Source of the DNA: Cyanobacteriota bacterium
GTDB lineage: Bacteria > Acidobacteriota > Vicinamibacteria > Vicinamibacterales > UBA2999
Direction: 5' to 3'
DNA length: 64,000 nt
Assembly: GCA_019752015.1 (NCBI GenBank)
Contig: JAIEMQ010000016.1
Span: forward strand, 62,001-126,000
The notes below the pieces were generated by a model. The model worked only from the letters and a program-made list of their open reading frames with translations. It searched no databases and was not told where the DNA came from. The translations under genes and the position numbers were made by a program. This document shows positions 14,708 to 35,752 of this stretch, in pieces (the first letter of the stretch is position 1; the number at the start of each line of letters is the position of its first letter).

Positions 14708-15598
14708 CTAGAAACGCCCCGCGCCTGTCCAGAAGCCCGGCTCTTCACCCGTGAACACGCGCCACGTCAACGACGGTGAGCCGCAGTGACCGCCCAGCAT
14801 GTCGACCAGGTGCACCTCAGGCGAGCCCTGATCGGGCCCAGCGCTGTAGTGATAGGCGGCCTCGTCACCAGCAGCCACGACCGGCACGCCGCTGTTGTCC
14901 GCGGCGGTGCGGGTCGGCTTCCCGTTGTAGCCCCAACGGGAATCTCGTTGACGGAACCCGTCGATGACGCGATCCTGCCAGGGGTTGTTGACGTACTTCA
15001 GGCCGCGCGGGCACGACTGGCTGTTCGAGAAATCGCCGCCGAGTTGTCCGACCAATCCACTGAAATCGGGAAGCGGCAGGCGAACGCCGGGCGGCGGATC
15101 GGCCGGGCGCGGGCCCGAAGCAACCGGGCCGGTCGGACTGGTCGGGGTCCCACCACCGCCAACAGTCGTGAAGGCCATGGTGTTCGACCAGGGACCCGTG
15201 GCGTCGTTCAATTCCGCGCGGACGCGCCAGACGTATCGCTTGTTGCCGGCCAGGGCGGTGTCGACGGTGAAACGCGCAACGCCGGAGGCATCAATCGAGC
15301 CCATGCCTTCGGTCGTGATGGTCGCGAAGTCATCGGCGCTCACCTGGAAGCGCTGGGCGAAGTTCGCTCGCTCATAGCGGCCCGCGCCGGCACGGGCGGC
15401 CAGGGTCGGAGTCGTCGAAATGTTCGTCGCCTCAAACAGCGGCGAAATCGCCAGCGGCGAGGACGCCTTGAGGTTGGAACCGTCGGCGTTCAGTGCTGAG
15501 CCGCTGCCCACCACCGCGCTCGGCGAGACCGGCGAACGCATCCCGCTTTCGCAGGCCACCGTAACCACTGCGCAAAGCACCAGTGCCGTCTTTTTCAT
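14708..15598 (-). CDS. secreted lipoprotein with Fn3-like and GHCG C-terminal domain (paralogue 1)
   Basis: 296 residues with a lipoprotein signal (ALVLCAVVTVAC) and an extended Ser/Pro-rich stretch. A fibronectin-III-like domain (KRYVWRVRAELND, WSNTMAFTT) ends at about 150; a Pro/Gly linker follows. The C-terminal domain carries RWGYNGK, AYHYSAGP, VHLVDMLGGHCG and a closing GAGRF. That domain recurs in the genes at 28652 and 34820, so it is a local family of exported proteins. Function unknown. Start at 15598 (MKKTALVL, AAGGAT upstream); ATG at 15616 is the alternative. Likely -10 TAAAAT lies upstream. Confidence 0.78.
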   Translation of the reverse strand: MKKTALVLCAVVTVACESGMRSPVSPSAVVGSGSALNADGSNLKASSPLAISPLFEATNISTTPTLAARAGAGRYERANFAQRFQVSADDFATITTEGMGSIDASGVARFTVDTALAGNKRYVWRVRAELNDATGPWSNTMAFTTVGGGGTPTSPTGPVASGPRPADPPPGVRLPLPDFSGLVGQLGGDFSNSQSCPRGLKYVNNPWQDRVIDGFRQRDSRWGYNGKPTRTAADNSGVPVVAAGDEAAYHYSAGPDQGSPEVHLVDMLGGHCGSPSLTWRVFTGEEPGFWTGAGRF

Positions 15599-15740
15599 TC
15601 GAAATCGATCCTTCATAAAGAGAGTTGCCTCGGGGTTAACCGCCGCCTATTTTATCGTAACTTGGCTGATTTGAGGTTAGCTTTTCGCCGTAAATCTGCG
15701 CCGCAGCAGGACTTCCAAGTGCTATGGTTAAGGGCAACGC

Positions 15741-16460
15741 ATGCGGTCCCCGGCCAGCTTGAGCGTCCTGGTTCCTATTTTCAACGAGCGAGCCACGATC
15801 GAGCGGCTGTTGAACGAGGTGGTAGCCGTCAAGACCGGGCTCACGGTCGAGGTGCTCGCCTGCGACGACGGATCGACGGACGGTACACGCGAAATCCTTT
15901 CCAGGATCTCGCTGCCGGGCGTAAAAGTGATCTTCATGGACGAGAACGTCGGCCGCGGCGGGGTCATCAAGCACCTGTGGAAGCAGGCGACCGGCGACGT
16001 GATCGTGCACCAGGACGCGGATCTCGAATACGACCCCCAGGACTACATTCCGATGCTCGAGCCGTTGATCGCCGATCGCGCCGACGTCGTCTATGGCAGC
16101 CGCTTCAAAGGCTCGATCGAAGGCATGCGGTTCCTCAACCGGATGGGCAACCTCACCATGACCGCGGCGGCGCGCGTCCTCTATGGCGTCAGGGTGTCCG
16201 ACCTGATGACCTGCTACAAGATGTATCGCTCGTCGTTGATCAACGACGTACACATCGAGGCGAACGGTTTCGACTTCGAGGCCGAGTTCACGGCGCGACT
16301 GGCGCAGCGCGGCGCCAGGTTCACCGAAGTCCCGGTCAGCTTCTCGGGACGCACGTTCGAGGAAGGCAAGAAGATTCGCGCCTTCGACGCGGTGCGCGTA
16401 ATGCGCGAGCTGCTGCGCTGCAAGGTGCAAGGCGAAAAGGCGGCGGGCGCGCATGGCTAG
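15741..16460 (+). CDS. family 2 glycosyltransferase (DPM1-like)
   Basis: GT-A fold glycosyltransferase of 239 residues like dolichol/polyprenyl-phosphate mannose synthases, which load a sugar onto a polyprenyl phosphate carrier. The nucleotide-binding part is LSVLVPIFNERATIERLL (7-24) and ACDDGSTDGTRE (about 40-51); the metal-binding DxD region is HQDADLEYDPQDY (about 90). No membrane helices follow, so it is the soluble type. TATGGT lies 12 nt before the ATG, without a Shine-Dalgarno. The last 8 bp overlap the nucleotidyltransferase start. Its product could feed the GT-C proteins nearby. Confidence 0.88.
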   Translation: MRSPASLSVLVPIFNERATIERLLNEVVAVKTGLTVEVLACDDGSTDGTREILSRISLPGVKVIFMDENVGRGGVIKHLWKQATGDVIVHQDADLEYDPQDYIPMLEPLIADRADVVYGSRFKGSIEGMRFLNRMGNLTMTAAARVLYGVRVSDLMTCYKMYRSSLINDVHIEANGFDFEAEFTARLAQRGARFTEVPVSFSGRTFEEGKKIRAFDAVRVMRELLRCKVQGEKAAGAHG

Positions 16461-17478
16461 CCTCAACAACGCGATGGTCGGCGTCATCCTCGCGGCCGGC
16501 AAGGGCGCGCGGATGTATCCGTTCTCGGAGCGCAGCCCCAAGCCGATCCTGCCGATCCTGAACCGGCCGCTGCTCGCCCATCAAATCGAGGTGATGCGCG
16601 ATTGCGGCATCTCCGACATCCACATTGTCGTCGGGCACCTCGGCTACCAGGTTGCGAGCTTCTTCGGCGACGGGTCGAGTTACGGGGTTCGCATTCACTT
16701 CGTCGAACAGGAAAGCACGTTGGGACTCGCGCATGCGCTTGGCGCGCTCGAATCGCGGATCCAGGTGCCGTTCCTGCTGATGCTCGGCGACATCTATTTC
16801 CACTTGAAGGCGCCGCTGCGTCCGCTGTGCGAGCAGGTGCTGTCCGGGGAGGTCAACGCCAACCTCGTCAGCATGTACGAGCCGGATCCCGAGATGGTGA
16901 AGCGGAACTTCGTCATCCAGGCCGACGAGAACGGGCGCGTGCACAAGGTGATCGAGAAGCCGCGTTACGTGAACAGCCAGTTGAAGGGCTGCGGCCTTTA
17001 CGTATTCGATCCGCACATCTTCGACGCGATTCGCCGCACGCCGCGGACGGCAATGCGCGACGAATACGAAATCACCGACAGCATCCAGATCCTGATCAAC
17101 GACGGCTACGTGACGCATCACCACCCGATCGCCGAGCGCGACTTGAATCTCACGAAGCCGGCGGATCTGCTGACGATCAACCTGATCGAGCTGGCGCGCA
17201 GCGGCATGGCGAAGCTGGTGGACGAATCGGTGAAGATGCCCGCGGGGACCCACATCGATCGCAGCGTGATCGGCAAGGGCGTCACCATCACCCATCCGAT
17301 CAGGATCACCAACACGGTGATCATGCCCGGCGTGACGGTGGCGGCGAGCACCGATCTTGATTCGGTGGTGATGGACGGCGAACACACCGTGTATTGCCCC
17401 GGTGTCGCCGCGCAGGCGCAGGCGGCGCTTCAGAGTTCCACCTTCGCGCAAAGCGCTACGGTGGACAGGCCCGCATGA
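16453..17478 (+). CDS. sugar-1-phosphate nucleotidyltransferase
   Basis: 341 residues. The N-terminal NTP-transferase domain shows VILAAGKGARMYPFSERSPKPILP (about 9-35), the signature of glucose-1-phosphate thymidylyl- and mannose-1-phosphate guanylyltransferases. The C-terminal part (from about 250) has hexapeptide-type turns (VIGKGVTITHPIRITNTVIMPG), i.e. a left-handed beta-helix. It makes an NDP-sugar; which sugar cannot be read. It overlaps the GT2 gene by 8 bp and the epimerase by ATGA. Confidence 0.87.
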   Translation: MASLNNAMVGVILAAGKGARMYPFSERSPKPILPILNRPLLAHQIEVMRDCGISDIHIVVGHLGYQVASFFGDGSSYGVRIHFVEQESTLGLAHALGALESRIQVPFLLMLGDIYFHLKAPLRPLCEQVLSGEVNANLVSMYEPDPEMVKRNFVIQADENGRVHKVIEKPRYVNSQLKGCGLYVFDPHIFDAIRRTPRTAMRDEYEITDSIQILINDGYVTHHHPIAERDLNLTKPADLLTINLIELARSGMAKLVDESVKMPAGTHIDRSVIGKGVTITHPIRITNTVIMPGVTVAASTDLDSVVMDGEHTVYCPGVAAQAQAALQSSTFAQSATVDRPA

Positions 17479-18410
17479 TTTCGTGGTCGCACGCTCTCGT
17501 TACCGGGGGCGCCGGCTTCATCGGATCACACCTCACCCGCGCGTTGCTGGCCGACGGCCGTGCCGTCACCGTCCTCGACAATCTTTCGGTCGGCCGGCGC
17601 GAAGTGGTGCCCGATGGCGCGCGCTTCGTTCACGGCGACATTCGCGATGAGCGGGCCGTCGCCGAGGCGCTGGCCGGCGTCGACTGCGTCTTCCATCTCG
17701 CCGCGCAGGTCACGATCCGCGGCAGCTTCGATCGCTTTCACGAGGATCTCGACACCAACGTGATGGGCACCGCTCGGCTGCTGCGCGCCGTCGATCCCAC
17801 GCGCGTCAAGTGGTTCACGCTGGCTTCGTCGATGGCGATCTACTCCGATTCTGATTCGCCGAAGCCGATCGACGAGTCTCATCCGAAGCGGCCGATCTCT
17901 CCGTACGGCGTCGGCAAGCTTGCCGCCGAGGATGTCTCGCAACAGGTGCTCGAAGCGCGCGGCATTCCGTTTACTGCAACGCGGTTCTTCAACACCTACG
18001 GTCCCGGACAGACGTTCACGCCATATGTCGGGGTGTTGACGATCTTCGTGACGCGGCTGTTGCGCGGTGAACCGATCACCATCTTCGGAGACGGCGAACA
18101 GCAGCGCGACTTCATCCACGTCAAGGACATCGTCGCCGGCGCGATGGCGGCACCCGGCCGCGAGCCGGGCCGCTACAACTTGGGCACCGGCCGCGGCACG
18201 TCCCTCAATCAGCTCGCGGCGATGGTGCTGGCGAAGCTCGCACCTGGCAAGCAAGCGAATCATGCGCCCGCGCAAGCCGGTGAGCTGCGGTTTTCGGTTG
18301 CCGACATCAGCGCGGCGCGACGGGCGCTTGGCTTTTCGCCGACGCGAACATTGCAGCAGGACATGGACGACGTGATCGAATGGGTGCGGCAGCGCGAGGT
18401 GACGAAGTAA
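17475..18410 (+). CDS. NAD-dependent sugar-nucleotide epimerase/dehydratase
   Basis: Extended short-chain dehydrogenase of 311 residues. The Rossmann signature is TGGAGFIGSH near residue 9-18, the catalytic S-Y-K set is SSMAIY...SPYGVGK (about 122-156), and RFFNTYGPGQ and GDGEQQRDFIHVKD mark a GalE/RmlB-like enzyme. It probably epimerises or dehydrates the NDP-sugar made by the preceding gene; the reaction is not certain. I chose the ATG at 17475, which overlaps the upstream stop as ATGA, over the longer ORF. Confidence 0.9.
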   Translation: MISWSHALVTGGAGFIGSHLTRALLADGRAVTVLDNLSVGRREVVPDGARFVHGDIRDERAVAEALAGVDCVFHLAAQVTIRGSFDRFHEDLDTNVMGTARLLRAVDPTRVKWFTLASSMAIYSDSDSPKPIDESHPKRPISPYGVGKLAAEDVSQQVLEARGIPFTATRFFNTYGPGQTFTPYVGVLTIFVTRLLRGEPITIFGDGEQQRDFIHVKDIVAGAMAAPGREPGRYNLGTGRGTSLNQLAAMVLAKLAPGKQANHAPAQAGELRFSVADISAARRALGFSPTRTLQQDMDDVIEWVRQREVTK

Positions 18411-20032
18411 TGCGCCGCCATGTCATTGGGATCGGCATCGCACTCCTGACGCTGATCGCCGGCGCGATCGTGATCGCGCGCGCCTATCCAACGCCGCGCG
18501 AGGCGATGATCACGCGCCACCTGGAAAACGCGCATTTCAATCCGCCGCCGCCGGCTCCATCAACCGGCGCCTTCGTCTCGACCCTGTGGGCCGATTTGTG
18601 GAGCGACAGCGGTGAAGCCTTCTGGCGCGCGATGGTGCCGAACCAGGCCGGCGTGCTGTGGATCGCACTGGCGGTGATGCTTGTGGTGGCGTTCGACTAC
18701 GCGCGTCCACGAGCCGGCCGCAATTTCGAGCTGATCCTGCTGCTGTCGCTCGGCTTTCTGCTCTTCAACGTGATGCGGTTCTTCGAGCTGCTCGGAGATC
18801 CGACCTACTTCTGGCTGATGGACCTCGTGTTCACCGGCATCGTGGCGGTGAGCCTGTCGCTGATCGCGGTGGCAATCTGGCGCGTCACACATCCGCATGA
18901 TGCGCCGTGGGAGCCGAACCTTGCCACGCGGCCATTGATGACGCTGGCGATCCTGCTGCTCTCGATGAACGTCGTCACCGGCCTCGCCAGCCCGCCCGAT
19001 GATGCGGGCTTCTACACGAATCTCGGCGCGCAGCGCCTGCGGGAGCGCGGCAAGTTTCCCTACGGCGATCCGCTGCTGACCAACAGCGCCGGCGCCGGCT
19101 ACGGCCCGCTGCTTTACCTCGCGCACCTGCCATTCCAGTTCATGCTGGACCCCACGCCGCTCAACTCGACCCAGCCGACGCGCGCGGACCTCGAAGCGGG
19201 CGCGCACTATCTGCTGCCGCCGGCGCTGGCGACGAAGCTGACGACGATCACGTTTCATCTGATCGGCTTCGCGGCGCTGGTGATGATCGGCCTGCAGCTC
19301 GCGAGCCCCAGCGTCGCCTGGGCGCTCGCCGCGTTGTATTGCGGCAGCGCCTACGTGATGGGTGTCGGCGGGCCGCGCGAAACGATTGGCGGCATGACCT
19401 TCATCTCTCACATCGCGCCACCGGCGGCGTCGATGGTCGCCTTCGCATTCCTGGCCCGGCCAATCGCGGCCGGCGCGCTGCTGGTGATGGCATCAGCAAC
19501 GGTGTTTTTCCCGGCGCTGTTCTTCCCGGCGTGGCTTGGCTATTACTGGGACCGCCGGCCTGACGCGATCAGGTTCGTCGGCGGCTGTGTGATCGCCGCC
19601 GTGCTGCTCGGCGTTCCGGTGGTGGCGCTGTCGACGGCGCTACCCGGGCAAAGCGTGGTCGCCACGGTGCTCAAGGAATCCGTCGGCCACCATCAGGGCA
19701 CGGACACCTACGGCCTCAGCACGTTTGGTTTTTGGGGACAGCGAGGCGGCCTCCGCGACTGGTTCCGCGAACCGTTCGTCGAGGGTCAGTTCACCACCAG
19801 TCCGATGTTCCTGATCACGATCGGATTTGCGGCGGCGATGTTCTTCATGGCGCGACGCACGGCGCCGTGGCAGCTGGCGCTCATCACCGCCACGGTCGGC
19901 ATCATCGCGCAGTGGTCGAAGATTCACGGCACGGGCGTCTACGTGAACTGGTACTACCCGTTCCTGCTGATTGGATTGCTGTGCAGTGCTCGCCCGTCCG
20001 CCAAGACCCGCGACGCCGAACTACGCGAGTAG
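18410..20032 (+). CDS. polytopic membrane protein, probable glycan-region component
   Basis: 540 residues with about ten membrane helices and a periplasmic loop after the first helix rich in Pro (PPPPAPSTG). The motif SPPDDAGFYTNLGAQRLRERGKFPYGDP, with paired Asp after a helix, resembles the acidic loop of GT-C or mannosyltransferase-like proteins. No family name can be given with confidence. The start overlaps the epimerase stop as TAATG, closing a four-gene operon (GT2, nucleotidyltransferase, epimerase, this). Its 3' end overlaps the convergent GT4 gene by 12 bp. Confidence 0.72.
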   Translation: MRRHVIGIGIALLTLIAGAIVIARAYPTPREAMITRHLENAHFNPPPPAPSTGAFVSTLWADLWSDSGEAFWRAMVPNQAGVLWIALAVMLVVAFDYARPRAGRNFELILLLSLGFLLFNVMRFFELLGDPTYFWLMDLVFTGIVAVSLSLIAVAIWRVTHPHDAPWEPNLATRPLMTLAILLLSMNVVTGLASPPDDAGFYTNLGAQRLRERGKFPYGDPLLTNSAGAGYGPLLYLAHLPFQFMLDPTPLNSTQPTRADLEAGAHYLLPPALATKLTTITFHLIGFAALVMIGLQLASPSVAWALAALYCGSAYVMGVGGPRETIGGMTFISHIAPPAASMVAFAFLARPIAAGALLVMASATVFFPALFFPAWLGYYWDRRPDAIRFVGGCVIAAVLLGVPVVALSTALPGQSVVATVLKESVGHHQGTDTYGLSTFGFWGQRGGLRDWFREPFVEGQFTTSPMFLITIGFAAAMFFMARRTAPWQLALITATVGIIAQWSKIHGTGVYVNWYYPFLLIGLLCSARPSAKTRDAELRE

Positions 20033-21058
20033 CTGCTGAATGGCTTTCGGCCACGTCATCTGCGCGGCCTGCTTGTGCCCCTCCTCGCCGAGACCTTGCG
20101 CGAGGTTGCGATCGTCCATCACCTTCCGCATCGCCATCGCGAGCGCTTCGGGCGTCGGCGCCGTCACGTAGCCGTTGTGTCCATCGCGCACCAGCTCCGC
20201 TGGACCGCCGCTGTCCGCGCACGTGATCACCGGTTTGCCGCACATGAACGCTTCGACCGTCACGAAGCCAAAGTCCTCGTTGAACGGCGGGAAGACGACG
20301 GCGCGGCAGCGCGCCAGGTGGTCGATCATCTCCGCATCCGTCAACCTGCCGACGAACTGGACGCGATGCTCGACATCGAGCTGCGTCGCGAGTCCGCGCA
20401 GCCGCTGCAGCTCCGCGCCTTCGCCGGCGATCACGAACTTGATGCCGGCCGCGACCGGTTCGGCGAGCGCCCGGAGAATCAGATCGAATCGCTTCAGTGG
20501 CGAGAGACGTGACACGCCGAACAAATAATCGCCGTAGCGATCGTGGCGGTATTCGCGTTGCGGCGGTGGTGGATACAGCACGTCGGTTTGAATACGGCCG
20601 AATCGCTGCTCGCGCGCCTGCACTGTCGCCGAAATCACGAAGCGCTTCCGCATCCGGCGCATCAGGTAGTTGTCGACGCGATGAATCAGCGCGCGGCGCA
20701 TGCCTTCCTTGATCCGGCCCTTCCACGACAGGTGCACGCGGAACTGATCCCAGAGATCGTAGTACTCGCGCATCCGGTGATTCAGCCACAACACGTGATT
20801 CGGATGCTGGACGGCATAACCGGGAAAGCGAAGGCTGATTACCCGATCCACCTTGCGCTCCTCGTGGGCGAGCTGAACGTCGGTGCACCAGGCCGCCAGG
20901 TAGGCGCTACCCTGCTGGCCGAATCGGTTCTGCGGCGTAACGACGAGGCCCGTATCGTGTCCCTCTTCGCGCAGCGCGCGCACCAGCTCGCGCGCCATCA
21001 CGAGGTGTCCGCCTTCCGCGAACGGCGGACTCGACGTGACGACGCAAATCGTGGCCAC
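20021..21058 (-). CDS. family 4 glycosyltransferase
   Basis: GT-B fold retaining glycosyltransferase of 345 residues. The N-terminal acceptor domain starts MATICVVTSSPPFAEGGHLVMARE; the C-terminal donor domain has FGVSRLSPLKRFDL (about 187-200), FVIAGEGAEL, and the EX7E element FPPFNEDFGFVTVEAF near residue 270. Donor and acceptor are unknown. GTG start overlaps the upstream stop as TAGTG, so it is co-translated with the GT-C gene at 21058. Last gene of the minus-strand operon 26409-20021. Confidence 0.9.
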   Translation of the reverse strand: MATICVVTSSPPFAEGGHLVMARELVRALREEGHDTGLVVTPQNRFGQQGSAYLAAWCTDVQLAHEERKVDRVISLRFPGYAVQHPNHVLWLNHRMREYYDLWDQFRVHLSWKGRIKEGMRRALIHRVDNYLMRRMRKRFVISATVQAREQRFGRIQTDVLYPPPPQREYRHDRYGDYLFGVSRLSPLKRFDLILRALAEPVAAGIKFVIAGEGAELQRLRGLATQLDVEHRVQFVGRLTDAEMIDHLARCRAVVFPPFNEDFGFVTVEAFMCGKPVITCADSGGPAELVRDGHNGYVTAPTPEALAMAMRKVMDDRNLAQGLGEEGHKQAAQMTWPKAIQQLLA

Positions 21059-22986
21059 TACCGGCCGTCTCCGTAAGTCGGAATCAGCCGCACCATCACG
21101 CCGAGAAAGCGGCTGTCGTTCGCGCCGTTCTCGAACATCGGCACGAATCCCGTCGACGAGGAGATCGACACCATGTAAACGTAATTCGTCGGAAAGCGCG
21201 GATCGTACTTGTAGGGCATGCCGTAGGGCATCGCGAGCTCGACTGTCTGTTGCGAGCTCGGCGCCATGTCGATGATCTGGCGATCGCCGCCGGTGGAAAT
21301 CACGACGCGATTGGGCCGCGGCCCGGTTTCGAGGATCGCCGTCAGCTTCGCGATGCGCAGCGATCGGGCGACTTCGACGCCGGCAGCGTCCGCTTCTGTC
21401 TGAATGCGCGCACGCAGCAGGATGTCGGCGCGCGACTCGCCGCGCACCCAGAACGCCTCGTTCTCACGATTGAAAACATTGTCGTCGAGGAAATACGCGA
21501 GGACTGGCGGCGTGCCGCCAAGCGGCTGCCGAAAGCGCGTGCTGGGTCCCGTGTTGATCGGCAGATCGTTGACCATCGTCAGCTCGGTCGGGAGCCAGCG
21601 GAATAAACCGGTCTTGGAGTGTTCAGCGGCATTGCGCGTGGCGAAAAACGGGCCTGAAATAATCGGCGATACGAACAGCGCGCTCAGCGCCATCGTCAGC
21701 AGGCCGCCGGCAGCGGTTTGCATCGGGGGCGCGAGGAACAGGAACACGCCGTAGGTGCCAAGGAAGTACCGATTGCCGACCGGACCGCCTCCGCCAGACC
21801 ACGTAAAGGGCATGTAGATCAGCAACACCGCCGCGGTGATCACCCCGGCCGCGAGGGTCAGCCATTGCCACATCGCGCGATCGCGCGTCGCCAGCATGAA
21901 CAGCAGGATCGCCATCACCCCCGGCAAGTAGTAAACGGCAAAGCCGGTGTGGCGGCCGAACAGGAAGTAGCCGACGTTGTGCGGGAAGACTTCCAGCAAC
22001 GCGTCGCGAGTGAACAGGACTCCGAACGATCCGCCGCCGACGCGTGCCGTGCCGACGGAGTCAAACGTCGCAGCGTCGTTCTGATAGGGGAATCCGCCGG
22101 CGAACGTGCCATCCCCGGCGCCAAGAAAAGTCTTGCGCTCGCCGCCCTGGTAATTCCAATCGCCGGTGAACGCAACATTCAACGCGAAGAGCAAGCCGGC
22201 CGTCCCGACAAACAGCACCGACATCCTGGCGGCTCTCGCCCACTGCTTTCGCAGCACCGCCGACACGAACAGCGGCATGAACAGCCCGATGTTGGTCGGC
22301 TTCGCGAACGTGGCCACGCCCAGCAAGATCGCCGCGATCGCATCCGAACGCGGTGCCAGCAGCCAGCGCGTGCGCAGCGCGTTGGGCCGATCGGCCGGCG
22401 GTCCACCGACTTCCTTGTAGCACCAGAAGAAGAAGCCGATCAGGACGATGGCAAAGATGAAGAAGTCGGGGCCGATCTGGACCATGTAGATCGGCACCAG
22501 CGACACGAACAGAAACGCGAACGCGAAGATCAGCGCCGCGACGGGATGACCGCGGGCGCTGACAAACGCGTATGCGCACGCAAAGCACGCCGTCATCAGC
22601 AACGCATGCAGCACCAGGAAGCCGTTGGTGCCGAACAGCCGGATGAACGGCGCCGCGACCAGCGGATAGATGTACGCCTTCGCGTAATAGATTCGGCCAC
22701 CGCTGCCCCGCTTCAGGAAGATCCCCTCGGGCCCCGACGGGAACTCCTTCCACACGCGCACGAGATCGTCGCGGCGATACTCGAAATCGAGGTCGTGCGC
22801 GAGGCTGTGGCCGAGCGTGTAATAGGTCGACGCGTCGCCGGCGAAGCCGCCGGACGCTTTCGGGAAATCGACCGACAGCGCCCACGCGGTCAGCACGACG
22901 CCAATCGCGGCGGTCGTCGACGCGCCAAGCCGCCAGGCTGGGCTACGCCCCTTCAATCGGTCCGCGACGCGGGTGTCGATCGTCAT
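21058..22986 (-). CDS. GT39/GT-C-like polytopic membrane glycosyltransferase
   Basis: 642 residues with about ten membrane helices and a C-terminal periplasmic part (from about 455). The first loop carries SGGFAGDASTYYTLGHSLAHDLDFEYRRDD, typical of PMT/ArnT-like enzymes with catalytic Asp after helix 1, followed by RIYYAKAYIYPLVAAP. These transfer a sugar from polyprenyl phosphate on the outer face of the inner membrane. The start overlaps the upstream GT4 stop (ATGA). Confidence 0.78.
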   Translation of the reverse strand: MTIDTRVADRLKGRSPAWRLGASTTAAIGVVLTAWALSVDFPKASGGFAGDASTYYTLGHSLAHDLDFEYRRDDLVRVWKEFPSGPEGIFLKRGSGGRIYYAKAYIYPLVAAPFIRLFGTNGFLVLHALLMTACFACAYAFVSARGHPVAALIFAFAFLFVSLVPIYMVQIGPDFFIFAIVLIGFFFWCYKEVGGPPADRPNALRTRWLLAPRSDAIAAILLGVATFAKPTNIGLFMPLFVSAVLRKQWARAARMSVLFVGTAGLLFALNVAFTGDWNYQGGERKTFLGAGDGTFAGGFPYQNDAATFDSVGTARVGGGSFGVLFTRDALLEVFPHNVGYFLFGRHTGFAVYYLPGVMAILLFMLATRDRAMWQWLTLAAGVITAAVLLIYMPFTWSGGGGPVGNRYFLGTYGVFLFLAPPMQTAAGGLLTMALSALFVSPIISGPFFATRNAAEHSKTGLFRWLPTELTMVNDLPINTGPSTRFRQPLGGTPPVLAYFLDDNVFNRENEAFWVRGESRADILLRARIQTEADAAGVEVARSLRIAKLTAILETGPRPNRVVISTGGDRQIIDMAPSSQQTVELAMPYGMPYKYDPRFPTNYVYMVSISSSTGFVPMFENGANDSRFLGVMVRLIPTYGDGR

Positions 22987-24167
22987 CTACGCTCGGTGGT
23001 CAGAAATGAGAGATCCGACTTCAGGATACCTGCCCGCCCGGTCGACCGCGAGGTCTCATGAAGGAGCTCATACAGCCGCTCCATTTTTCGGACGAAGGCG
23101 GCAATGTCATAACGCCGGCCGACTTTGCGAGCCTGCTCGCCCAGGCCGGCCGCGGCGTGCGGCCGTTCGAGCAAATACGAGATGGCATCCGCGAGGGCGC
23201 CGGCATCGGCCTTCGGCACGATCAGCGCGTCCTTGCGATCGGTCAGCACGTCGAGGAGACCGTCCGCGTCGGTGGCGACGATCGGCTTCCCCATCGCCAG
23301 CGTCTCAAAGACCGTCAGCGGGGTGCCTTCCCACAGGGATGGGAACACCACGATATCGAAGGCCGAGAGCGCGGCGGCAACGTCGCGCATGAAGCCGCTG
23401 AAGACGAACTTGTCGCCAAGTTGCAGCGCGCGCGCCTGGGCCTCGAGCTCCCCCTGCAGCTCGCCTTCGCCGACCATGAAGAAGCGAACCGCCGGATGCT
23501 TCGCGAGCACTTTCGGCGCCGCCTCGATCAGGTATTGATTGCCCTTCGACGGCATCAATCGCGTGATCGTGCCGATCGCGATTGTGCCCTGAGCGATCCC
23601 CATCGCCTGCCGCGCGGCGGCGATTTCCTGCTCGCTGCGCTCGCGCGCAAATTCATCGAGCGGCGCGCCGAGGTAAACGACCTTGGTGCGCTCCGCCGGC
23701 ATCAAGCGTGCGCGCGTCGTGAACTCACCGGTGGATTCAGACACGGCGATCGCCAGATCCGTATGCGGCGCCAGCAATCGATCCGCGATCTTCTGGAACC
23801 ACGGCGTGTCGCCATGATTCGCGTGCTCGTGCAGGATCGCTGGAATCCCCATCCGCCACGCGCACATCCGTCCAAACGTCGTCGCGCCGTAGCCATGCAG
23901 GTGGACGATATCGGCGCGCTTCTCGCGCAGCACTTTCAGCAAGGCCGGAAACGTCGCGGGATCGAACTTGTGCCGCGCCATGTAGCTGACGTCGATCCCG
24001 AATTCCTCGAGCGTGTCGGCCGACAGATCTTTCTTACGGAGGCTGATCAGCGAGACGTTGAAGCGCGACTTGTCGAAGCGCGGGATCATCCACGCGAAGA
24101 GCCGCTTCACGCCATGCATGCGAGAACCCTCCCAACCAAGGTGATCGCAAATATGCACGACATTCAA
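22983..24167 (-). CDS. family 4 glycosyltransferase
   Basis: 394 residues in GT-B form. It begins MNVVHICDHLGWEGSRMHGVKRLF, has HEHANHGD near residue 110, GTITRLMPSKGNQYLIEAAP (donor domain, about 205) and the EX7E motif FPSLWEGTPLTVFETLAMGKP (about 290-310). The ORF is open far upstream, but the family start falls at TTG 24167, immediately after a 35-bp heptamer array; the upstream extension encodes repeat-derived GSRLPAPGSR and is not family-like. Overlaps the GT-C gene by ATGA. Substrates unknown. Confidence 0.86.
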   Translation of the reverse strand: MNVVHICDHLGWEGSRMHGVKRLFAWMIPRFDKSRFNVSLISLRKKDLSADTLEEFGIDVSYMARHKFDPATFPALLKVLREKRADIVHLHGYGATTFGRMCAWRMGIPAILHEHANHGDTPWFQKIADRLLAPHTDLAIAVSESTGEFTTRARLMPAERTKVVYLGAPLDEFARERSEQEIAAARQAMGIAQGTIAIGTITRLMPSKGNQYLIEAAPKVLAKHPAVRFFMVGEGELQGELEAQARALQLGDKFVFSGFMRDVAAALSAFDIVVFPSLWEGTPLTVFETLAMGKPIVATDADGLLDVLTDRKDALIVPKADAGALADAISYLLERPHAAAGLGEQARKVGRRYDIAAFVRKMERLYELLHETSRSTGRAGILKSDLSFLTTERR

Positions 24168-24202
24168 CCGGGAGCCGGGAGCCGGGAGCCGGGAGCCGGA
24201 AG
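24168..24202. repeat. five CCGGGAG heptamers filling an operon gap
   Basis: Four perfect CCGGGAG units and one CCGGAAG fill exactly the 35 bp between the stop codon of the epimerase (24203-24205) and the TTG start of the GT4 gene (24167). The same unit in opposite orientation lies in the methyltransferase gene at 30615-30642. Confidence 0.85.
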
Positions 24203-25195: not shown

Positions 25196-26409
25196 CGGGC
25201 GTCCGCCTTCGCTCCATTCCATCCAGCGGAGCTTCGGCGAGACTTCGCTAGTCGATCGTAGGCGTGCGCAGTGCGTTTGAGATACGACTCGCGCGAGTAC
25301 TTTTCCTGCGCGACCGCTGCCGCGGCTGTGGCTAGTCGCCGGCGCTCCTCGGGCGAATCGATCAACGCGACCATCGCCGCGGCAAAGGGTTCCGGTTGCG
25401 GATCGACCAGCTTCGAAATCTCGGGCGTCAGCACCTGCGTGTGCGTCAGCAGATTCGTCGCCACGATCGGTTTGCCCGATCGCAGGTAGGAATAGATCTT
25501 CAACGGCGTGTTGGTGCCGCGAATGCGCGGTGAGACCAGCAGATCCGCGGCTTGCACGAATCCAGGAATCTCCTTCGCCGGTTGTTGCCCGGTGAAGATC
25601 ATCACCGGCGACGCGCCTGCTGCCTGCGCACGCGCCTTCGCCGCTTCGACCTGCCGGGGCTCGCCGCCGACAACCAGCACGCGGGCGTTGGGACGCGCTC
25701 TCGCGACGATCGCGACTGCGTCGATCAGCATGTCGACGCCTTGGTACGCCTCAAACGTCCCGGTGTACAAAGCGAGCGGCGCATCTGATGAAATGCCCCA
25801 CGCGCTCCGGATCTCAGTCGCCGTGCGGCTCGGCGGTTCATCCACATCTCCGCCCATCACGTTTTCGATCAACAGCGAGCGATCCGCCACACCCATTTCC
25901 GCGACGGTGTCCTGCAGCTCCTGGCAGATCGTGATCACGACGTCCGACTTGTGAACCATCTGATCTTCCGCCCACACGAACATGCTCTTCAGGAGCGATG
26001 ATTGGCTGTATTTGAAATTACTCAGCTGCTGAGGCAGGCTCGAATGCATGTCGTAGAGATGCGGGATGCGCAGCCACTTCGACAACCACACCCCAACCAA
26101 TCCCATTTCTTCATGCGAGTGAATCGCGTCGTAGCGCTCAGACCAGACACGCCGCGCAATCGTCAGCACCATAAGGACATCCAGAATTACTTTGGTGATC
26201 GATGGACCGATGCGGACGTTGCGGACGAACGGCGGACGCAGGCTGCGGAAGATCCGGAGATTCAGTAGCTCGACGTCGCCGCCGATCGGATAGGTAACGA
26301 GATCGACGTGATGGCCGAGCTCAACCAGCGCCTTGATGCGGTGGTACTCGCTGAAAGGTGTGCCGCGCGGCTCGAAGAACGGCTCGGGCGCCAGCATCAG
26401 GATACGCAC
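25192..26409 (-). CDS. family 4 glycosyltransferase
   Basis: 405 residues, GT-B form, beginning MRILMLAPEPFFEPRGTPFSEYHR, with HSHEEMGLVGVWL (about 105), ALYTGTFEAYQGVDMLI (donor domain, about 220) and SPRIRGTNTPLKIYSYLRSGKPIVATN (about 300-325), where the usual Glu-X7-Glu is degenerate. First gene of a five-gene minus-strand operon. GTG start with TATAAT ending 5 nt upstream and no Shine-Dalgarno. Confidence 0.88.
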   Translation of the reverse strand: MRILMLAPEPFFEPRGTPFSEYHRIKALVELGHHVDLVTYPIGGDVELLNLRIFRSLRPPFVRNVRIGPSITKVILDVLMVLTIARRVWSERYDAIHSHEEMGLVGVWLSKWLRIPHLYDMHSSLPQQLSNFKYSQSSLLKSMFVWAEDQMVHKSDVVITICQELQDTVAEMGVADRSLLIENVMGGDVDEPPSRTATEIRSAWGISSDAPLALYTGTFEAYQGVDMLIDAVAIVARARPNARVLVVGGEPRQVEAAKARAQAAGASPVMIFTGQQPAKEIPGFVQAADLLVSPRIRGTNTPLKIYSYLRSGKPIVATNLLTHTQVLTPEISKLVDPQPEPFAAAMVALIDSPEERRRLATAAAAVAQEKYSRESYLKRTAHAYDRLAKSRRSSAGWNGAKADAR

Positions 26410-26420: not shown

Positions 26421-26446
26421 TCTACTAAGCATATCCAACTGAGCCG

Positions 26447-27394
26447 ATGCCCCCGCTGCTGAAAGCACTTGTACGCCTTGGCATCAGCGCCGCCCTGTTG
26501 TATTTCGTGCTGCGTTCGATCGATCTCCCGGCGTTCTGGGAGCGGGTCAAAGGCATGAACCCGGCGTCGATGGTGCTCGCGCTCGCGGCCTACGCGTTCA
26601 CGCAGTCGATCGCGGTGTGGCGATGGAATCGATTGCTGCGCGCGCAACACATTGACGTGGAGCGGCGCCGGCTGACCGAGTCGATCTGGGTCAGCCTGTT
26701 TTTCAACAACTTCCTGCCGAGCAACATCGGCGGCGACGTTGTGCGGATTGCGGATACGGCGCCGGCGGCGGGATCGAAAACGCTGGCGATGACCGTGATC
26801 CTGATGGATCGCGTGCTCGGGTTGACGGCGCTGGTGATCATCGCCAGCTCGGGTGCGCTGGTTGCGTCGCTCGCTGGAGTACACATCCCCGGCGCACGAT
26901 GGTTGTGGCTGGTATCGGCTCTTGGAACAGTCGCTGCGATTTCTGTAATTGCGATGCCGCATTTAGTAGGAAACGCTGTAGGTCATGCGCTGATGCCGTT
27001 GAGGGCGTTAAACAGGCCGTGGCTGAGCGAACGCGCGCAACGCCTTGAAGATGCGGTAATTCGGTTCAGAAATGCGCCGTCCGCAGTGGCCGGCGCGTTC
27101 GCCGGCGCAATGGTGGTGCAGATCACAATTGTGGCCTTTTATTTGCTGACTGCTAAAGGACTATCAGTCCCTTTACCGATCTTCCTGGGCGCGGTGCTCA
27201 TTCCGGTGAGCCTGGTCGTCCAGATGGCGCCGGTCTCGATCAACGGGTTCGGTGTCCGTGAAGCAGTGTTCGCGTTTTTCTTTCGCCGGTTCGGGCTGCC
27301 AACTGATGCTGCTGTCGCACTCTCCCTCGTGTCGACCGGCATGGTGATGGGGCTCTCGCTGGTCGGCGGGTTGTTCTTTTTGCGTCGACGGTAG
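26447..27394 (+). CDS. YbhN/LPG-synthase-type flippase-like membrane protein
   Basis: 315 residues with about eight membrane helices. It matches the UPF0104/AglD/MprF-N-terminal family: LAAYAFTQSIAVWRWNRLLRAQ, FFNNFLPSNIGGDVVRIADTA and the late MAPVSINGFGVREAVFAFFFRRFG are the recognisable conserved stretches. Members are thought to move or synthesise lipid-linked substrates. A second member is at 36540. CATATC lies 11 nt before the ATG; divergent from the GT4 operon. Confidence 0.85.
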   Translation: MPPLLKALVRLGISAALLYFVLRSIDLPAFWERVKGMNPASMVLALAAYAFTQSIAVWRWNRLLRAQHIDVERRRLTESIWVSLFFNNFLPSNIGGDVVRIADTAPAAGSKTLAMTVILMDRVLGLTALVIIASSGALVASLAGVHIPGARWLWLVSALGTVAAISVIAMPHLVGNAVGHALMPLRALNRPWLSERAQRLEDAVIRFRNAPSAVAGAFAGAMVVQITIVAFYLLTAKGLSVPLPIFLGAVLIPVSLVVQMAPVSINGFGVREAVFAFFFRRFGLPTDAAVALSLVSTGMVMGLSLVGGLFFLRRR

Positions 27395-27462
27395 GCGCCG
27401 TCAGTCCGGAGCGCAAACGCTTCGGGAAGTGTGCAGTCGAAGTTTTTTGAGGGGACCCAGGA

Positions 27463-28560
27463 ATGATCAAGCGCTACCCCATTCGCGGGATCGGTGTGCT
27501 CGTCGGTGTGTTGTGGCTCGTCGGCTGCGAATCCGTCAAGAGCTCGAATCCCACGGCACCGTCGGTCGCCGGTCCGATTCCCGGCGTGAACATCACCGCG
27601 CCGCGCGCGCTCGAGCCGTTCGCCGGCCAGAAGCTGACGTTCACCGGTTCGCCGCAGACCCTGCTGATTGAAAACCCCGGCACGACCGGCGCTCGCGCCA
27701 TCACGCTCGAGATCGACGTGGCGACCGATGCGGCCTTCACGCAGCTGGTGCATCGCAACGACGCGGTCGTGCCCGGTGACGGCGGCCGCACGCTGTATCA
27801 GCTGCCGCAGGCGCTGCCCGCGGGCTACACCTACTACTGGCGCACCAAGGCGAACGACGGCGCGAACAGCGGGCCGTACTCGACCGCTTCGAGCTTCACC
27901 GTCGTGCCGCCGGTCGTGATCAACGCACCGATCGCCATGGCACCGAGCGGCCGCGTCAACACCAGCAATCCCGACTTCCGTGTCACCAACGGCGCCGTCT
28001 CGGGCACGAGCGGCGTCGCCTATCGCTTTGAAGTGGCGCGCGACGCCGGCTTCAACCAGATCCTCGCGATCGTCACGGTGCCCCTGAACGGCAGCGGCAG
28101 CACGACGATGTCGATCGGATCGTTGCCCTACTCGACGACGCTGTTCTGGCGCGTCAGAGGCAGCGACGGCTCAACTGAATCGGGTTACTCGAACACGCAG
28201 GCGTTCACGACACCGGAGCCTCCCGCGCCGGTGGCGCCGCCGGCCGGCGGACCGGATCCCGTCCCCGGCGATTCCGCCGCGTGGACCACCGCGCAGTGGA
28301 AGGACTACTTCTTCTCGCTCGTCGCGGCGAAGGGCGGACCGACCGTCTCCGACGCCGGCATGCGCGCAATGCGTGGCGACCTGCTCGCCCGTGGCGCGGA
28401 TTTCCAGAACGGCTGGCGCGGCGACATGCGTCCCCGCATTTTCCTGCCCGTGCCCGGTTGCCCGATCGCGAACCGGCCCGATGTCCCGCTGTGCTCGTAC
28501 GACCGCACCGTGGACCTCGGCCGCTACGGTGGAGCGTGGGATTGGATCCCGCGGTTCTAA
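27463..28560 (+). CDS. secreted lipoprotein with Fn3-like domains (paralogue 2, distinct C-terminus)
   Basis: 365 residues. Perfect lipobox LWLVGC, then ESVKSSNPTAPSVAGPIPG, a stretch shared word for word with the next gene. Two fibronectin-III-like modules follow (GYTYYWRTKANDG near 120; TTLFWRVRGSDG near 225), each ending in a VVPPVVI or TTPEPP linker. The C-terminus (about 265-365) is unlike the GHCG domain of the paralogues: WTTAQWKDYFFSL, AMRGDLLARGADFQ, FLPVPGCPIANRPDVPLCSYDRTVDL. Function unknown; an outer-surface protein of the glycan region. GAGGGG lies 8 nt before the ATG. Confidence 0.78.
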   Translation: MIKRYPIRGIGVLVGVLWLVGCESVKSSNPTAPSVAGPIPGVNITAPRALEPFAGQKLTFTGSPQTLLIENPGTTGARAITLEIDVATDAAFTQLVHRNDAVVPGDGGRTLYQLPQALPAGYTYYWRTKANDGANSGPYSTASSFTVVPPVVINAPIAMAPSGRVNTSNPDFRVTNGAVSGTSGVAYRFEVARDAGFNQILAIVTVPLNGSGSTTMSIGSLPYSTTLFWRVRGSDGSTESGYSNTQAFTTPEPPAPVAPPAGGPDPVPGDSAAWTTAQWKDYFFSLVAAKGGPTVSDAGMRAMRGDLLARGADFQNGWRGDMRPRIFLPVPGCPIANRPDVPLCSYDRTVDLGRYGGAWDWIPRF

Positions 28561-28579: not shown

Positions 28580-28651
28580 TGGAGCTGGGGGCGGGTGCTG
28601 ACCTGTAAAGCTGTGAGAAGTAATGGCCGATACCAAATGTTGAGGGATTCC

Positions 28652-29863
28652 ATGTTGTCGAGTAACCACCTCTTTCGAGGGCTGAGCGCTCTCGTGGCTG
28701 TTGTGTGTCTGGCCGGCTGTGAGTCGGTCAAGAGCTCGAACCCGACGGCGCCGTCGGTCGCCGGACCGATCCCGGGCGTGAACATCAGCGCCCCGCGTCC
28801 GCTCGAGCCGTACGCCGGCTCGACACTCGTCTACAACGGCGAGCCGCCGACGCTGCTGATCGAGAACGCCGGCACCAGCGGCGCGCGCAACATCTGGCTG
28901 CAACTCGAGCTGAGCACCGATACCGGGTTCTCGAACATGGTGCACCAGGCCGATCAGATCGCGCTCGGCGATGGCGGCCGTACGACGTATCGCCTGCCCT
29001 CACCACTCGGCGCCGGCTACACCTACTACTGGCGCACGCGCGCGGTTGACGGCGCGAACGTGGGGCCGTACTCGGCCGTCTCGAACTTCGAAGTCGTACC
29101 GCCGGTGGTGATCGATGCGCCGACTGCGATCGCGCCGTCAGGCAAGATCAATACGAACAAGCCTGAGTTCCGCGTCACCAACGGCGCCATCTCCGGAACC
29201 ACCGGCGTGGTCTACCGCTTCGAGGTCTCGCGGGCCGCCGACTTCAGCTCGATGATTGCGGTCGTTACCGCGATCCCGAACGGCAGCGGCTCGACGACGA
29301 TGACGCTCGGCGAGCTGCCGTATAAGACGACTTACTACTGGCGCGTGAAGGGCTCGGACGGCAGCAAGGAATCGCCGTACTCGAACACGCAATCGTTCAC
29401 GACGCCGGATCCGCCGGCGGCGCCGCCATCTGGTGGCCCCGGCGGCGTGCCGGTCGGCGTACCGACGGGCCCCGGTGGACGTGCTCCGGACAACGGCCCG
29501 CTCCCGAGCTATGGCGCCGGTGTGGTCGCCGCGGTGGCGCGTGCGAACCCGGGCGCCCTGGCGAATTCCTGCCAGGAGAATGGCGGCAGCTGGCAATTCA
29601 TGGACCAGGTCGTGGACACGCTGCGCACGTATGACACGCGCTGGGGCTACAACGGCAAGCGCGGCGACGCGAACAATCCGTCGCTGGACGTCGTGACGTA
29701 TCACTACGGGCCGGGGCCGGACGCGAACTCGACGGATGTCTATATCATCGACGTCATCGGCGGCCATTGCGGCGCGACGCCTTCGGCGAGCTGGAATGAC
29801 GTGACGCAGATCACGCTGTCGTCCGGAACGATCGGCCGCTGGATTTCCCGCGGGCGATTCTAG
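28652..29863 (+). CDS. secreted lipoprotein with Fn3-like and GHCG C-terminal domain (paralogue 3)
   Basis: 403 residues. The lipobox is VCLAGC; the next 20 residues repeat those of the preceding gene almost exactly, as do two Fn3-like modules (GYTYYWRTRAVDG, TTYYWRVKGSDG). After a Gly/Pro linker the C-terminal domain (about 300-403) reads SCQENGGSWQFMDQ, RWGYNGKRGD, DVVTYHYGPG, VYIIDVIGGHCG, SWNDVT. This domain is shared with the genes at 14708 and 34820. Start at 28652 has GAGGG at 5-nt spacing; the long upstream ORF is a shadow of the previous gene. Confidence 0.8.
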   Translation: MLSSNHLFRGLSALVAVVCLAGCESVKSSNPTAPSVAGPIPGVNISAPRPLEPYAGSTLVYNGEPPTLLIENAGTSGARNIWLQLELSTDTGFSNMVHQADQIALGDGGRTTYRLPSPLGAGYTYYWRTRAVDGANVGPYSAVSNFEVVPPVVIDAPTAIAPSGKINTNKPEFRVTNGAISGTTGVVYRFEVSRAADFSSMIAVVTAIPNGSGSTTMTLGELPYKTTYYWRVKGSDGSKESPYSNTQSFTTPDPPAAPPSGGPGGVPVGVPTGPGGRAPDNGPLPSYGAGVVAAVARANPGALANSCQENGGSWQFMDQVVDTLRTYDTRWGYNGKRGDANNPSLDVVTYHYGPGPDANSTDVYIIDVIGGHCGATPSASWNDVTQITLSSGTIGRWISRGRF

Positions 29864-29880
29864 GGATCAGGGATCAGGGC
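29864..29880. repeat. short GGATCAG heptamer repeat
   Basis: Two perfect GGATCAG units plus a partial third fill the space between the convergent lipoprotein and methyltransferase stops; the methyltransferase stop codon is inside the second unit. Confidence 0.5.
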
Positions 29881-31145: not shown

Positions 31146-31172
31146 TGAATCAGAAGCACGATAGCACTTCTT

Positions 31173-31204
31173 GCCACGCCGAAGCCGCCAGGCGAAGGCG
31201 GGTC
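31173..31204 (+). repeat. intergenic imperfect-palindrome family (E2)
   Basis: GCCACGCCGAAGCC followed by GCCAGGCGAAGGCGGGTC fills most of the gap between the methyltransferase start and the stop of the membrane protein, matching both arms of the family consensus. Confidence 0.5.
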
Positions 31205-33806: not shown

Positions 33807-33822
33807 CGGCACCTTGTCGAGA

Positions 33823-34590
33823 CTAGAAGCGCAGGCGCCCGCCGAAGCCGAATTGCACGCCGCCGACCTTGGTCGGCACGCCGGTGCCGCTCAACATCTC
33901 GACATTCATATCCGCCTGGGTGAAGCGAACGAATCCGCCCGCGCCGACGCGCACGCTGTCGTTCGACCACACGATGTAAGTCGCGTCCATCCCGGCGTTG
34001 TAGCCGGTCTGGCTCTTCTTGCGCTCGGTGATGGTCGGTGTCGTCACGACGGTGGTAAAGGCGCCGCCCTCCTCGCCGATGCGAACTTCGCTGACGGCCT
34101 CCTGCGTCAACCGGAAGAACGACGGGCCGCCGTAGACCATCACGTCGAACTTGCTGCCGATCGGGATCACCCAGCCAATTTGCAAGTGCGTCGCCTGCTC
34201 CTTGCGATTGAGGCCCGGCACGGCCTGAGCGAGCGTGCGCGGACGATTGAAGAACACCGGGCTCGGAATCGAGCCGGTCAACCGGCCTTCGGTATCGTTT
34301 TGTTCCTGGTGGTACCCCGCGCCGACAGTCAGGTTGCGCCAGACGCGCAGGCCGACGCCGACGTCGAACAGGCTTCCGGACGTAAAGTCGCTGGACGACG
34401 AGAGGGTTCCCGTTTCCTCGTAGATCGAAAGGGATCGTGTATCCGTCATGGCGGAAGACCCAGACTCCACGCCCCAGCCGATGTTGATGTAGCCACGGTC
34501 CGCCCAGGTCGCGCCCTGGGCTGAGGCCTGGCGGGCCGTACTTGCGAACACACCACACACGATCAAAAGCGTCACTACTGATTTATTCAT
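33823..34590 (-). CDS. outer-membrane beta-barrel protein
   Basis: 255 residues. Signal peptide with cleavage after ASA (QASAQG). The mature chain is a series of amphipathic strands (YINIGWGVES, LFDVGVGLRVWRNLTVGAGYH, HLQIGWVIPIGSKFDVMVYGG, SVRVGAGGFVRF) ending GFGGRLRF, with the terminal Phe that the BAM machinery recognises. This fits a small eight- to ten-strand barrel like OmpW/OmpA types; no specific function. AAGGAT precedes the ATG. Upstream of the membrane protein and likely co-transcribed. Confidence 0.8.
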   Translation of the reverse strand: MNKSVVTLLIVCGVFASTARQASAQGATWADRGYINIGWGVESGSSAMTDTRSLSIYEETGTLSSSSDFTSGSLFDVGVGLRVWRNLTVGAGYHQEQNDTEGRLTGSIPSPVFFNRPRTLAQAVPGLNRKEQATHLQIGWVIPIGSKFDVMVYGGPSFFRLTQEAVSEVRIGEEGGAFTTVVTTPTITERKKSQTGYNAGMDATYIVWSNDSVRVGAGGFVRFTQADMNVEMLSGTGVPTKVGGVQFGFGGRLRF

Positions 34591-34679
34591 TCGTAATCCT
34601 TGGGCTCCGATAACTCTGTAACAGGGCCTGGGTTGCCCTACCGGACGGCCATGTTAGCATGAGAAAAACCGCGAAGTCC

Positions 34680-34736
34680 TATAATTCTATGGAAAATACG
34701 GAGTTATTCCACCACTCTGTGAAATTCTGCTACAAT
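34680..34736 (+). promoter_or_regulatory. A+T-rich promoter region of lipoprotein paralogue 4
   Basis: In the 230-bp gap between divergent genes two -10-like boxes face the lipoprotein: TATAAT at 34680-34685 and TACAAT at 34731-34736. Neither has a convincing -35. Apart from these I see nothing else in this gap. Confidence 0.4.
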
Positions 34737-34819
34737 CCGTGCCGGCCAAGTGAGTGCACGGGTCCCCAGCTCTTTGCACCCTCACAGCATTCCGCCGGCC
34801 ACATCTGGAGATTTGTTTG

Positions 34820-35752
34820 ATGAAGTTTTTTCGAGTTGGCTCGTGCCTTGCCGTGTTGATGGCTGGCGCCGCGTGCAGCCAGACGCCCCAGGCCCTGACA
34901 GGTCCCACAGCCGCCGCCGGCGGTGCCACCGCCGCAACGGCCGCTGCCGACGGATCGACGCTGAAGGTGACGGCGCCCGCGCTGATCTCTCCGGTCGACT
35001 CGCAGCGCGCGGAGGATCGCCGCCCCACACTCATCTGGCTTAACTCGAGCGGCAAGTACGGCGGCATTGGCGTCGCCTACGACATCGAGCTCAGTACGCC
35101 GACCACAGTCGTGTACTCGCGGACGGTTGGCGAATCGCCCGACGTCGGCGCGCACCTGATCGACATGGAGCTGGAGTACGACACGGTGTACTCCTGGCGC
35201 GCCCGCGCGCACATCGGAAATCCAGACACCTACGGTCCGTGGTCGGCGTGGGCGAGCTTTCTGTCGCCGACGCGTCCGGTGGCCGTGGTGCCGGTTGGCA
35301 ACACCATCGCAGGTGGCTGCGCGGCGCCGATTTCGCCGCTCGGTCCCGGTGAAACGCGCAAGCCGCGCCCGAACGACTCGGCGATCGTCCGCGCGGTGAA
35401 CTCGCAGTTTCCGACCTTGCTGGCGCGCTCATGTCAGGATGCGGGCGGCACCTGGGAATTCATGGATCGCTCAGTCGACGCGCTGCGCGCCAAGGACGGC
35501 CGGTACGGCTACAATTGCAAGCGGGGCAACTGCAACGATCCGTCGGTCGACGTCATCAGCTACTACTGGGGCGGAGGCAACAATATCCAGGGCAGCAACC
35601 AGGTGTACATCTTCGACCTCATTGCGGGTCACTGCGGTCCGACGCCGTCGGTCATCTGGAACGACGTGACGGACATCACCTACAGCTCCGGCACCGAAGG
35701 CCGTACGACCTATCCGCGCCCGGGCCGCGTCGTCGGGCCCTGCACACCGTAA
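34820..35752 (+). CDS. secreted lipoprotein with Fn3-like and GHCG C-terminal domain (paralogue 4)
   Basis: 310 residues with lipobox LMAGAAC, an Ala/Thr-rich spacer, and one Fn3-like module (YDTVYSWRARAHIGN, near 110-125). The C-terminal domain reads SCQDAGGTWEFMD, RYGYNCKRGNCNDPS, DVISYYWGGG, VYIFDLIAGHCG, IWNDVT. Two extra Cys (NCKRGNC) appear where paralogue 3 has NGKRGD, and a Cys lies close to the C-terminus, suggesting additional disulfides. Start at 34820 has GGAG about 10 nt upstream; the ORF open to 34754 has no signal-peptide start. Confidence 0.78.
   Translation: MKFFRVGSCLAVLMAGAACSQTPQALTGPTAAAGGATAATAAADGSTLKVTAPALISPVDSQRAEDRRPTLIWLNSSGKYGGIGVAYDIELSTPTTVVYSRTVGESPDVGAHLIDMELEYDTVYSWRARAHIGNPDTYGPWSAWASFLSPTRPVAVVPVGNTIAGGCAAPISPLGPGETRKPRPNDSAIVRAVNSQFPTLLARSCQDAGGTWEFMDRSVDALRAKDGRYGYNCKRGNCNDPSVDVISYYWGGGNNIQGSNQVYIFDLIAGHCGPTPSVIWNDVTDITYSSGTEGRTTYPRPGRVVGPCTP

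Follow-up and report, generated by a model that had tools for sequence, protein, structure and literature searches.

A C-terminal domain common to three lipoproteins of an acidobacterial surface-glycan locus is a candidate envelope-binding tip

We analysed a 64,000-nucleotide stretch of DNA (the window), positions 62,001 to 126,000 of contig JAIEMQ010000016.1 (assembly GCA_019752015.1), from a genome deposited as a Cyanobacteriota bacterium and placed by GTDB in the acidobacterial order Vicinamibacterales. It encodes three lipoproteins (LP1, LP2 and LP3; Table 1) that lie in a surface-glycan locus and all end in one common domain of ~119 residues. We tentatively propose, largely from sequence comparison, that this domain is a small, disulfide-stapled and non-catalytic tip through which surface lipoproteins bind the envelope. 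It would be displayed at the end of outer-envelope lipoproteins, on a stalk of immunoglobulin- or fibronectin type III-like (Ig/Fn3-like) repeats; in this order, the lipoproteins would most likely bind the glycan of the locus or the underlying peptidoglycan, tethering or organising it. A binding tip is preferred over an enzyme because the domain is always C-terminal, sits on an Ig-like stalk, can dispense with its His and Cys residues and has phage copies near lysins.

Three lipoproteins share a domain that matches no known family

With the LP2 domain as query, a search of the 5.9 Mb genome returned the query itself (E 7.4e-72), LP3 (E 3.1e-35, 59% identity) and LP1 (E 7.9e-16, 49% identity), and no further copy at E <= 0.01. 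A previous reading of the window, made without database searches (the sequence-only reading), had located these three copies by shared motifs, and all three are where it put them. Its first motif, RWGYN(G/C)K, is present as RWGYNGK in two copies and in the third as RYGYNCK. The D/Y stretch is there as well, although the YHY given for it occurs in two of the three copies and the third reads YYW. The pattern V(Y/H)xxD(V/M/L)(I/L)(G/A)GHCG was found in all three. A second conserved cysteine, at position 23 and preceded by Ser in most members ('SC'), was absent from that description. The LP1 domain has an extra loop after RWGYNGKP and forms its own branch of 12 rows (tree support 100/99), while that of LP3 carries an additional Cys pair (GYNCKRGNC) and falls in a branch of 5 rows (tree support 99/93).

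The lipoprotein nature of the three proteins was borne out by pattern reading: their N-termini are hydrophobic and a lipobox is visible in each (VVTVAC in LP1, VCLAGC in LP2 and MAGAAC in LP3). For LP2, an upstream start at ATG 28637 is possible, the frame being open from 28373. The Fn3-like spacers of the sequence-only reading stood in part, since Ig/Fn3-like Pfam matches exist, all of them under the curated cut-offs for LP1 to LP3. Among 71 bacterial open frames with the domain, the domain ended at most 30 residues from the stop codon in every case, and a simple lipobox pattern was seen in 39.

Significant matches to the domain were absent from Pfam, queried with 73 members, 8 divergent proteins and the three full proteins, from NCBIfam, queried with the three full proteins and 35 members, and from PHROGs, and among PDB sequences nothing lay below E 0.38, whether by single-sequence or profile search; weak library matches above E 0.01 did occur and were treated as chance. 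Neither a description of the domain nor the term 'GHCG motif' was found in a literature search that did not cover subscription journals. The family thus appears to be undescribed as far as Pfam, NCBIfam and PHROGs show, as had been supposed. Surface lipoproteins with Ig/Fn3 stalks and extracellular carbohydrate-binding proteins are a known kind, with which the present lipoproteins have in common a lipobox, Ig-like repeats and a small C-terminal tip; the difference is that their tip domain matches none of the known carbohydrate-binding families of Pfam.

Two cysteines mostly occur together

Conservation was measured on 88 of 91 aligned rows, three having been dropped as sub-strings or as shorter than 90 residues. 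In these 88 non-redundant domains Cys23 and Cys89, the latter being the Cys of GHCG, were both present in 77 and both absent from 8, with 3 mixed rows. Two of the mixed rows (L100 and L101; we number loci and contigs L and genomes G) have other cysteines nearby and the third (L052, 506-865) is a poorly aligned copy. The co-occurrence has a Fisher p of 6e-9 without correction for relatedness, a value that overstates the case because relatives share ancestry. Joint absence was nonetheless seen in at least three separate sets: one bacterial branch, the L089/L093 phages and the L087 phage. The simplest account of this co-occurrence is a structural disulfide, and the data suggest that Cys23 and Cys89 form one.

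The sequence-only reading had assigned the conserved His and Cys to a metal site or a hydrolase or peptidase centre. Within the narrow family such an assignment is tempting, with His88 in 74 of 88 rows and Cys89 in 78. However, Cys89 accompanies Cys23, and GHCG is not kept throughout the orthologues, which is an outcome that the sequence-only reading had itself named as refuting. Two lipoproteins that adjoin the same glycosyltransferase and epimerase genes (L097 and L099) lack Cys23 and have MRGAES in place of GGHCG. Their N-terminal halves resemble that of LP2 (39% over 242 residues for L099, 29% over 215 for L097), and their C-terminal domains are matched by the family profile at E about 1e-7, with a reciprocal E of 6e-12. 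A lipoprotein at the LP3 place in L100 reads LGAGG instead of the GHCG stretch, and the L089, L093 and L087 phages have GAAG there. The loss of His and Cys from locus-equivalent lipoproteins makes His-Cys catalysis unlikely; there is also no conserved second His or Cys nucleophile and no match to a peptidase family. Taken with the Cys23-Cys89 pairing, the MRGAES lipoproteins without either Cys led us to reject catalysis by this pair, and we hold a metal site or hydrolase/peptidase centre at GHCG to be very improbable.

The conserved Asp of the same reading fared better than its His and Cys. D83 and an aromatic residue at position 47 are present in 88/88 rows, D62 in 87/88, D44 and G48 in 86/88 each and R46 in 83/88. 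The invariance of D83 leaves room for an Asp-based site, and the domain could be an enzyme that acts through acidic residues (D62, D83 and perhaps D44 with K52 or R46) on the locus glycan or peptidoglycan, for example in the manner of a hydrolase or transglycosylase. These conserved polar residues lie on the central helix-strand core, the phage copies stand beside peptidoglycan hydrolase genes and the bacterial copies in a glycan locus, all of which would fit such an enzyme. We nevertheless consider it unlikely: a recognisable lysin is already among the phage neighbours, which makes a second enzyme unnecessary, the Asp and Arg of DxRWG may be structural, and no Pfam glycosidase family is matched.

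The domain is linked to a surface-glycan locus in other genomes

The glycan-cluster setting proposed for the lipoproteins was confirmed by Pfam, which identified around them three GT4-type and one GT2 glycosyltransferases, a nucleotidyltransferase, two epimerases, two LPG_synthase_TM proteins, two methyltransferases and a radical S-adenosylmethionine (SAM) protein. As a marker for the locus we used the glycosyltransferase at 25192-26409; a homologue at E <= 1e-90 occurs in 96 of the 162 order genomes. The marker is present in 41 of the 48 genomes with the domain, and on the same contig as the domain in 28 of these 41 (hand count), at a distance of at most 3.6 kb in 27 genomes and 4.3 kb in one (G409); in the other 13 the two are on separate contigs, some of them short. 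The tie between the domain and the surface-glycan locus in other genomes, which the sequence-only reading had proposed to check, is real. By tblastn, at least two other locus genes were found in 15 of 30 loci with the domain, several of these loci being short. In one family of the order (f10), the homologue of the marker glycosyltransferase has a single in-frame TGA in six genomes (G199, G215, G055, G381, G382 and G383).

Between LP2 and LP3 lies the gene for a probable outer-membrane beta-barrel (33823-34590), whose place is kept in several relatives. The domain could accordingly be a docking or assembly part that binds a protein partner, such as this barrel or the membrane glycosyltransferases, and aids export or assembly of the glycan. 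The presence of two to three paralogues in a locus would agree with a different partner for each, LP1 and LP3 being old branches. Since the domain also occurs in Myxococcota and phages that have no barrel or glycosyltransferase partners, we think this explanation rather improbable.

Directly upstream of LP2 is a fourth lipoprotein gene (27463-28560), absent from the sequence-only reading's description, whose product passes the Pfam cut-off for PhoD_N (32.8 vs. 30 bits). Its C-terminal domain was found at E <= 1e-5 in only 1 of the 162 order genomes, namely its own, and a viral scan for this C-terminus gave no match. The gene is probably the product of a fresh exchange of C-terminal module. The radical SAM protein downstream of LP3 (37504-38652) has counterparts of 77-89% identity in L011, L096 and L100. 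Gene 38662 and several membrane proteins have no Pfam match.

Table 1. Lipoprotein genes and their neighbours in the window
Feature	Position	Strand	Remark
LP1 lipoprotein, Ig-like stalk and C-terminal domain	14708..15616	-	domain 14711-15070
Glycosyltransferase	15741	+	in glycan-gene stretch 15741..25222
Nucleotidyltransferase	16453	+
Epimerase	17394	+
Membrane protein without Pfam match	18380	+
Glycosyltransferase	20021	-	in glycan-gene stretch 15741..25222
Membrane protein without Pfam match	21058	-
Glycosyltransferase	22983	-	in glycan-gene stretch 15741..25222
Epimerase	24203	-
Glycosyltransferase, GT4 type	25192..26409	-	locus marker
LPG_synthase_TM family membrane protein	26447..27394	+	directly upstream of lipoprotein genes
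Fourth lipoprotein	27463..28560	+	N-terminal half as LP2, C-terminal domain unrelated
LP2 lipoprotein, Ig/Fn3-like repeats and C-terminal domain	28652..29863	+	domain 29504-29860
Methyltransferase	29874-31145	-
Large membrane protein	31203-33812	-
Probable outer-membrane beta-barrel	33823..34590	-	signal peptide and C-terminal pattern, by eye
LP3 lipoprotein, Ig-like stalk and C-terminal domain	34820..35752	+	domain 35369-35728
Methyltransferase (35824), LPG_synthase_TM (36540), radical SAM protein (37504)	35824..38652	+	neighbours in relatives too

Relatives occur in Acidobacteriota, Myxococcota and phages

Named genomes, when scanned for the domain, yielded 30 loci, of which 21 are titled Acidobacteria, Acidobacteriota or Vicinamibacterales, 7 Myxococcota or Deltaproteobacteria and 2 Acidimicrobiia. 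The last two titles (contigs L005 and L015) are probably mislabelled, because their domain sequences are identical to that of G004, a member of the same acidobacterial genus as the window. The domain was present in 22 of 60 related whole genomes, in at least 48 of 162 genomes of the order (28 candidates per genome scored) and in at least 10 of 297 genomes drawn from the phylum (15 candidates per genome scored). In five of seven Myxococcota genomes two domains lie within one gene, and by tblastn none of the seven Myxococcota loci carries any locus gene.

In a second acidobacterial group the domain is found in tandem secreted proteins without a lipobox. After the tandem genes, L021 (13605-15593) and L027 (10505-12496) encode a long secreted protein with a Matrixin-like stretch and fn3 repeats, recognised by Pfam in L021 and by eye in L027. 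Locus L095 (genome G050) encodes three secreted proteins in a row, each of roughly 790-800 residues and each ending in the domain.

Six viral contigs from four lineages also carry the domain, and in three of the four lineages its gene lies in the lysis region. The Phage_lysozyme gene of L085 ends at 5932, and a possible start of the domain gene is at 5929. One gene separates the domain gene of L093 from a Hydrolase_2 gene. The Glyco_hydro_108 gene of L087 is at a distance of about 0.9 kb, and a weak C92-like match lies between the two. The gene between lysin and domain genes in L093 (963-1475, - strand) encodes another exported phage protein, with a signal-like stretch and an Ig-like look. In the remaining lineage (L084) the domain ends a coiled-coil/collagen-like protein encoded beside a very large phage protein; two scanned neighbour genes there had no Pfam match. 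A signal-peptide-like start is seen in L085, L089 and L093, and not in L087 or L084. Both phage settings, a lysin neighbourhood and the end of a coiled-coil/collagen-like protein, speak for the cell envelope or the surface of the virion.

The viral copies raise the question of whether the lipoproteins are mainly phage-derived, as acquired modules that serve as receptor decoys or superinfection blockers. Besides the six contigs, a viral structure model matches the predicted fold (see below), and the module exchange in the fourth lipoprotein would fit such an origin. In contrast, the window domain was not found by tblastn in 50,697 named phage records at E 1, nor were three divergent copies, and it was not found in 72,556 plasmid records at E 0.01. 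The bacterial genes, moreover, keep their place in a conserved locus in several families of the order and have no prophage neighbours in the window. We therefore judge a mainly phage origin to be highly unlikely. A viral scan with the Cys-less bacterial branch yielded 117 pattern matches, none of which was confirmed.

The predicted fold offers a weak papain-like lead

An AlphaFold2 model of the LP2 domain, built from an alignment (A3) of 73 of 76 domains after exclusion of three shorter than 100 residues, was predicted with confidence (predicted local distance difference test, pLDDT, 96.9; predicted template modelling score, pTM, 0.90). DSSP assigned to it a helix at 31-43 and strands at 47-51, 59-67, 79-86 and 94-99. 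The Cys-less domain of L103 was the subject of a second model, with a like order of elements (pLDDT 89.1, pTM 0.85). With Foldseek, neither model matched a PDB entry at E <= 0.001. An uncharacterised Caudovirales protein without annotation, A0A6J5QSJ9 of the BFVD, has the same predicted fold as the domain (E 8.3e-9, template modelling score 0.77, 26% identity).

Structural comparison with VIA-align, for which Z below 4 has little meaning by the tool's own note, placed LapG (Z 3.6, 94 residues, 4.0 Å) and SseI (Z 3.1) in the top rows for the first model. For the second model, Marasmius oreades agglutinin (MOA) occupied six of the first seven rows (Z 3.8, 80 residues, 3.7 Å), with a Pasteurella toxin domain (Z 2.5) and an arylamine N-acetyltransferase (Z 2.1) further down; the match lists, which bear only on the families that appear in them, also contain copper amine oxidases and others. 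SseI and the Pasteurella toxin domain are likewise members of the papain-like superfamily, judging in part by entry titles. From the order of elements, D62 would take the position of the superfamily's His and D83 that of its Asp. In the models, the domain would have in common with the papain-like/transglutaminase-like superfamily a long helix followed by four strands. It differs in having no Cys at the place of the nucleophile: in reference columns 24-35, where the long helix has its N-terminal end, 87 of 88 rows have none, the single Cys being at column 29, and the domain therefore has no papain-type nucleophile.

PMC10318531 places C93 and Acetyltransf_2 in the papain-like superfamily and describes its core as a long helix and then strands; likewise, the C-terminal domain of MOA is assigned to it in PMC4764322, and PMC6642083 gives C137 for LapG. 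Two families were compared by hhalign, Transglut_core (27 sequences) and NLPC_P60 (28 sequences), both sampled from the order, and the probabilities were 0.2-1.1%. The BTLCP family (PF06035) was found in none of 149 genomes of the phylum, in a search whose control matched only Caulobacter of 14. The papain-like nature of the fold is thus a weak lead and not a finding. If it is right, the domain would resemble DUF1175 (PF06672), a family described in PMC10318531 as papain-like, inactive and peptidoglycan-binding, in having a papain-like shape without catalysis and in binding envelope glycan; with no sequence match to any Pfam family, the domain is set beside DUF1175 by description only. A further-reaching version, which we regard as distinctly unlikely, would see a degenerate papain-like fold turned into an envelope-glycan-binding module in Vicinamibacterales, Myxococcota and phage lysis cassettes, with the three invariant Asp in place of the former catalytic centre (D62 for its His, D83 for its Asp), where they would bind the ligand or calcium, and with the GHCG disulfide as an add-on of the exported bacterial branch.

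Discussion

Several observations weigh against a disulfide-stapled, non-catalytic tip for the locus glycan or peptidoglycan. An active site could be made up of the three nearly invariant Asp residues together with Arg46, Asn50 and Lys52. The L084 phage copy has both cysteines and yet no export signal. The marker glycosyltransferase is also present in 55 of the 114 order genomes in which the domain was not found, which shows that the locus can do without it. Conversely, neither the Myxococcota copies (7 loci) nor those of the second acidobacterial group are part of the glycan locus, and the locus glycan cannot therefore be the sole ligand. Finally, the papain-like structural matches all have Z below 4, with an unrelated kinetochore chain tied at Z 3.7.

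An envelope-binding tip is still the explanation that we tentatively prefer. Its fixed place in a surface-glycan locus would make the domain a handle on an envelope polymer of environmental Acidobacteriota, which are hard to study. The tempting catalytic reading of the His-Cys motif is corrected, and the position of the phage copies next to lysins suggests a testable target in the envelope.

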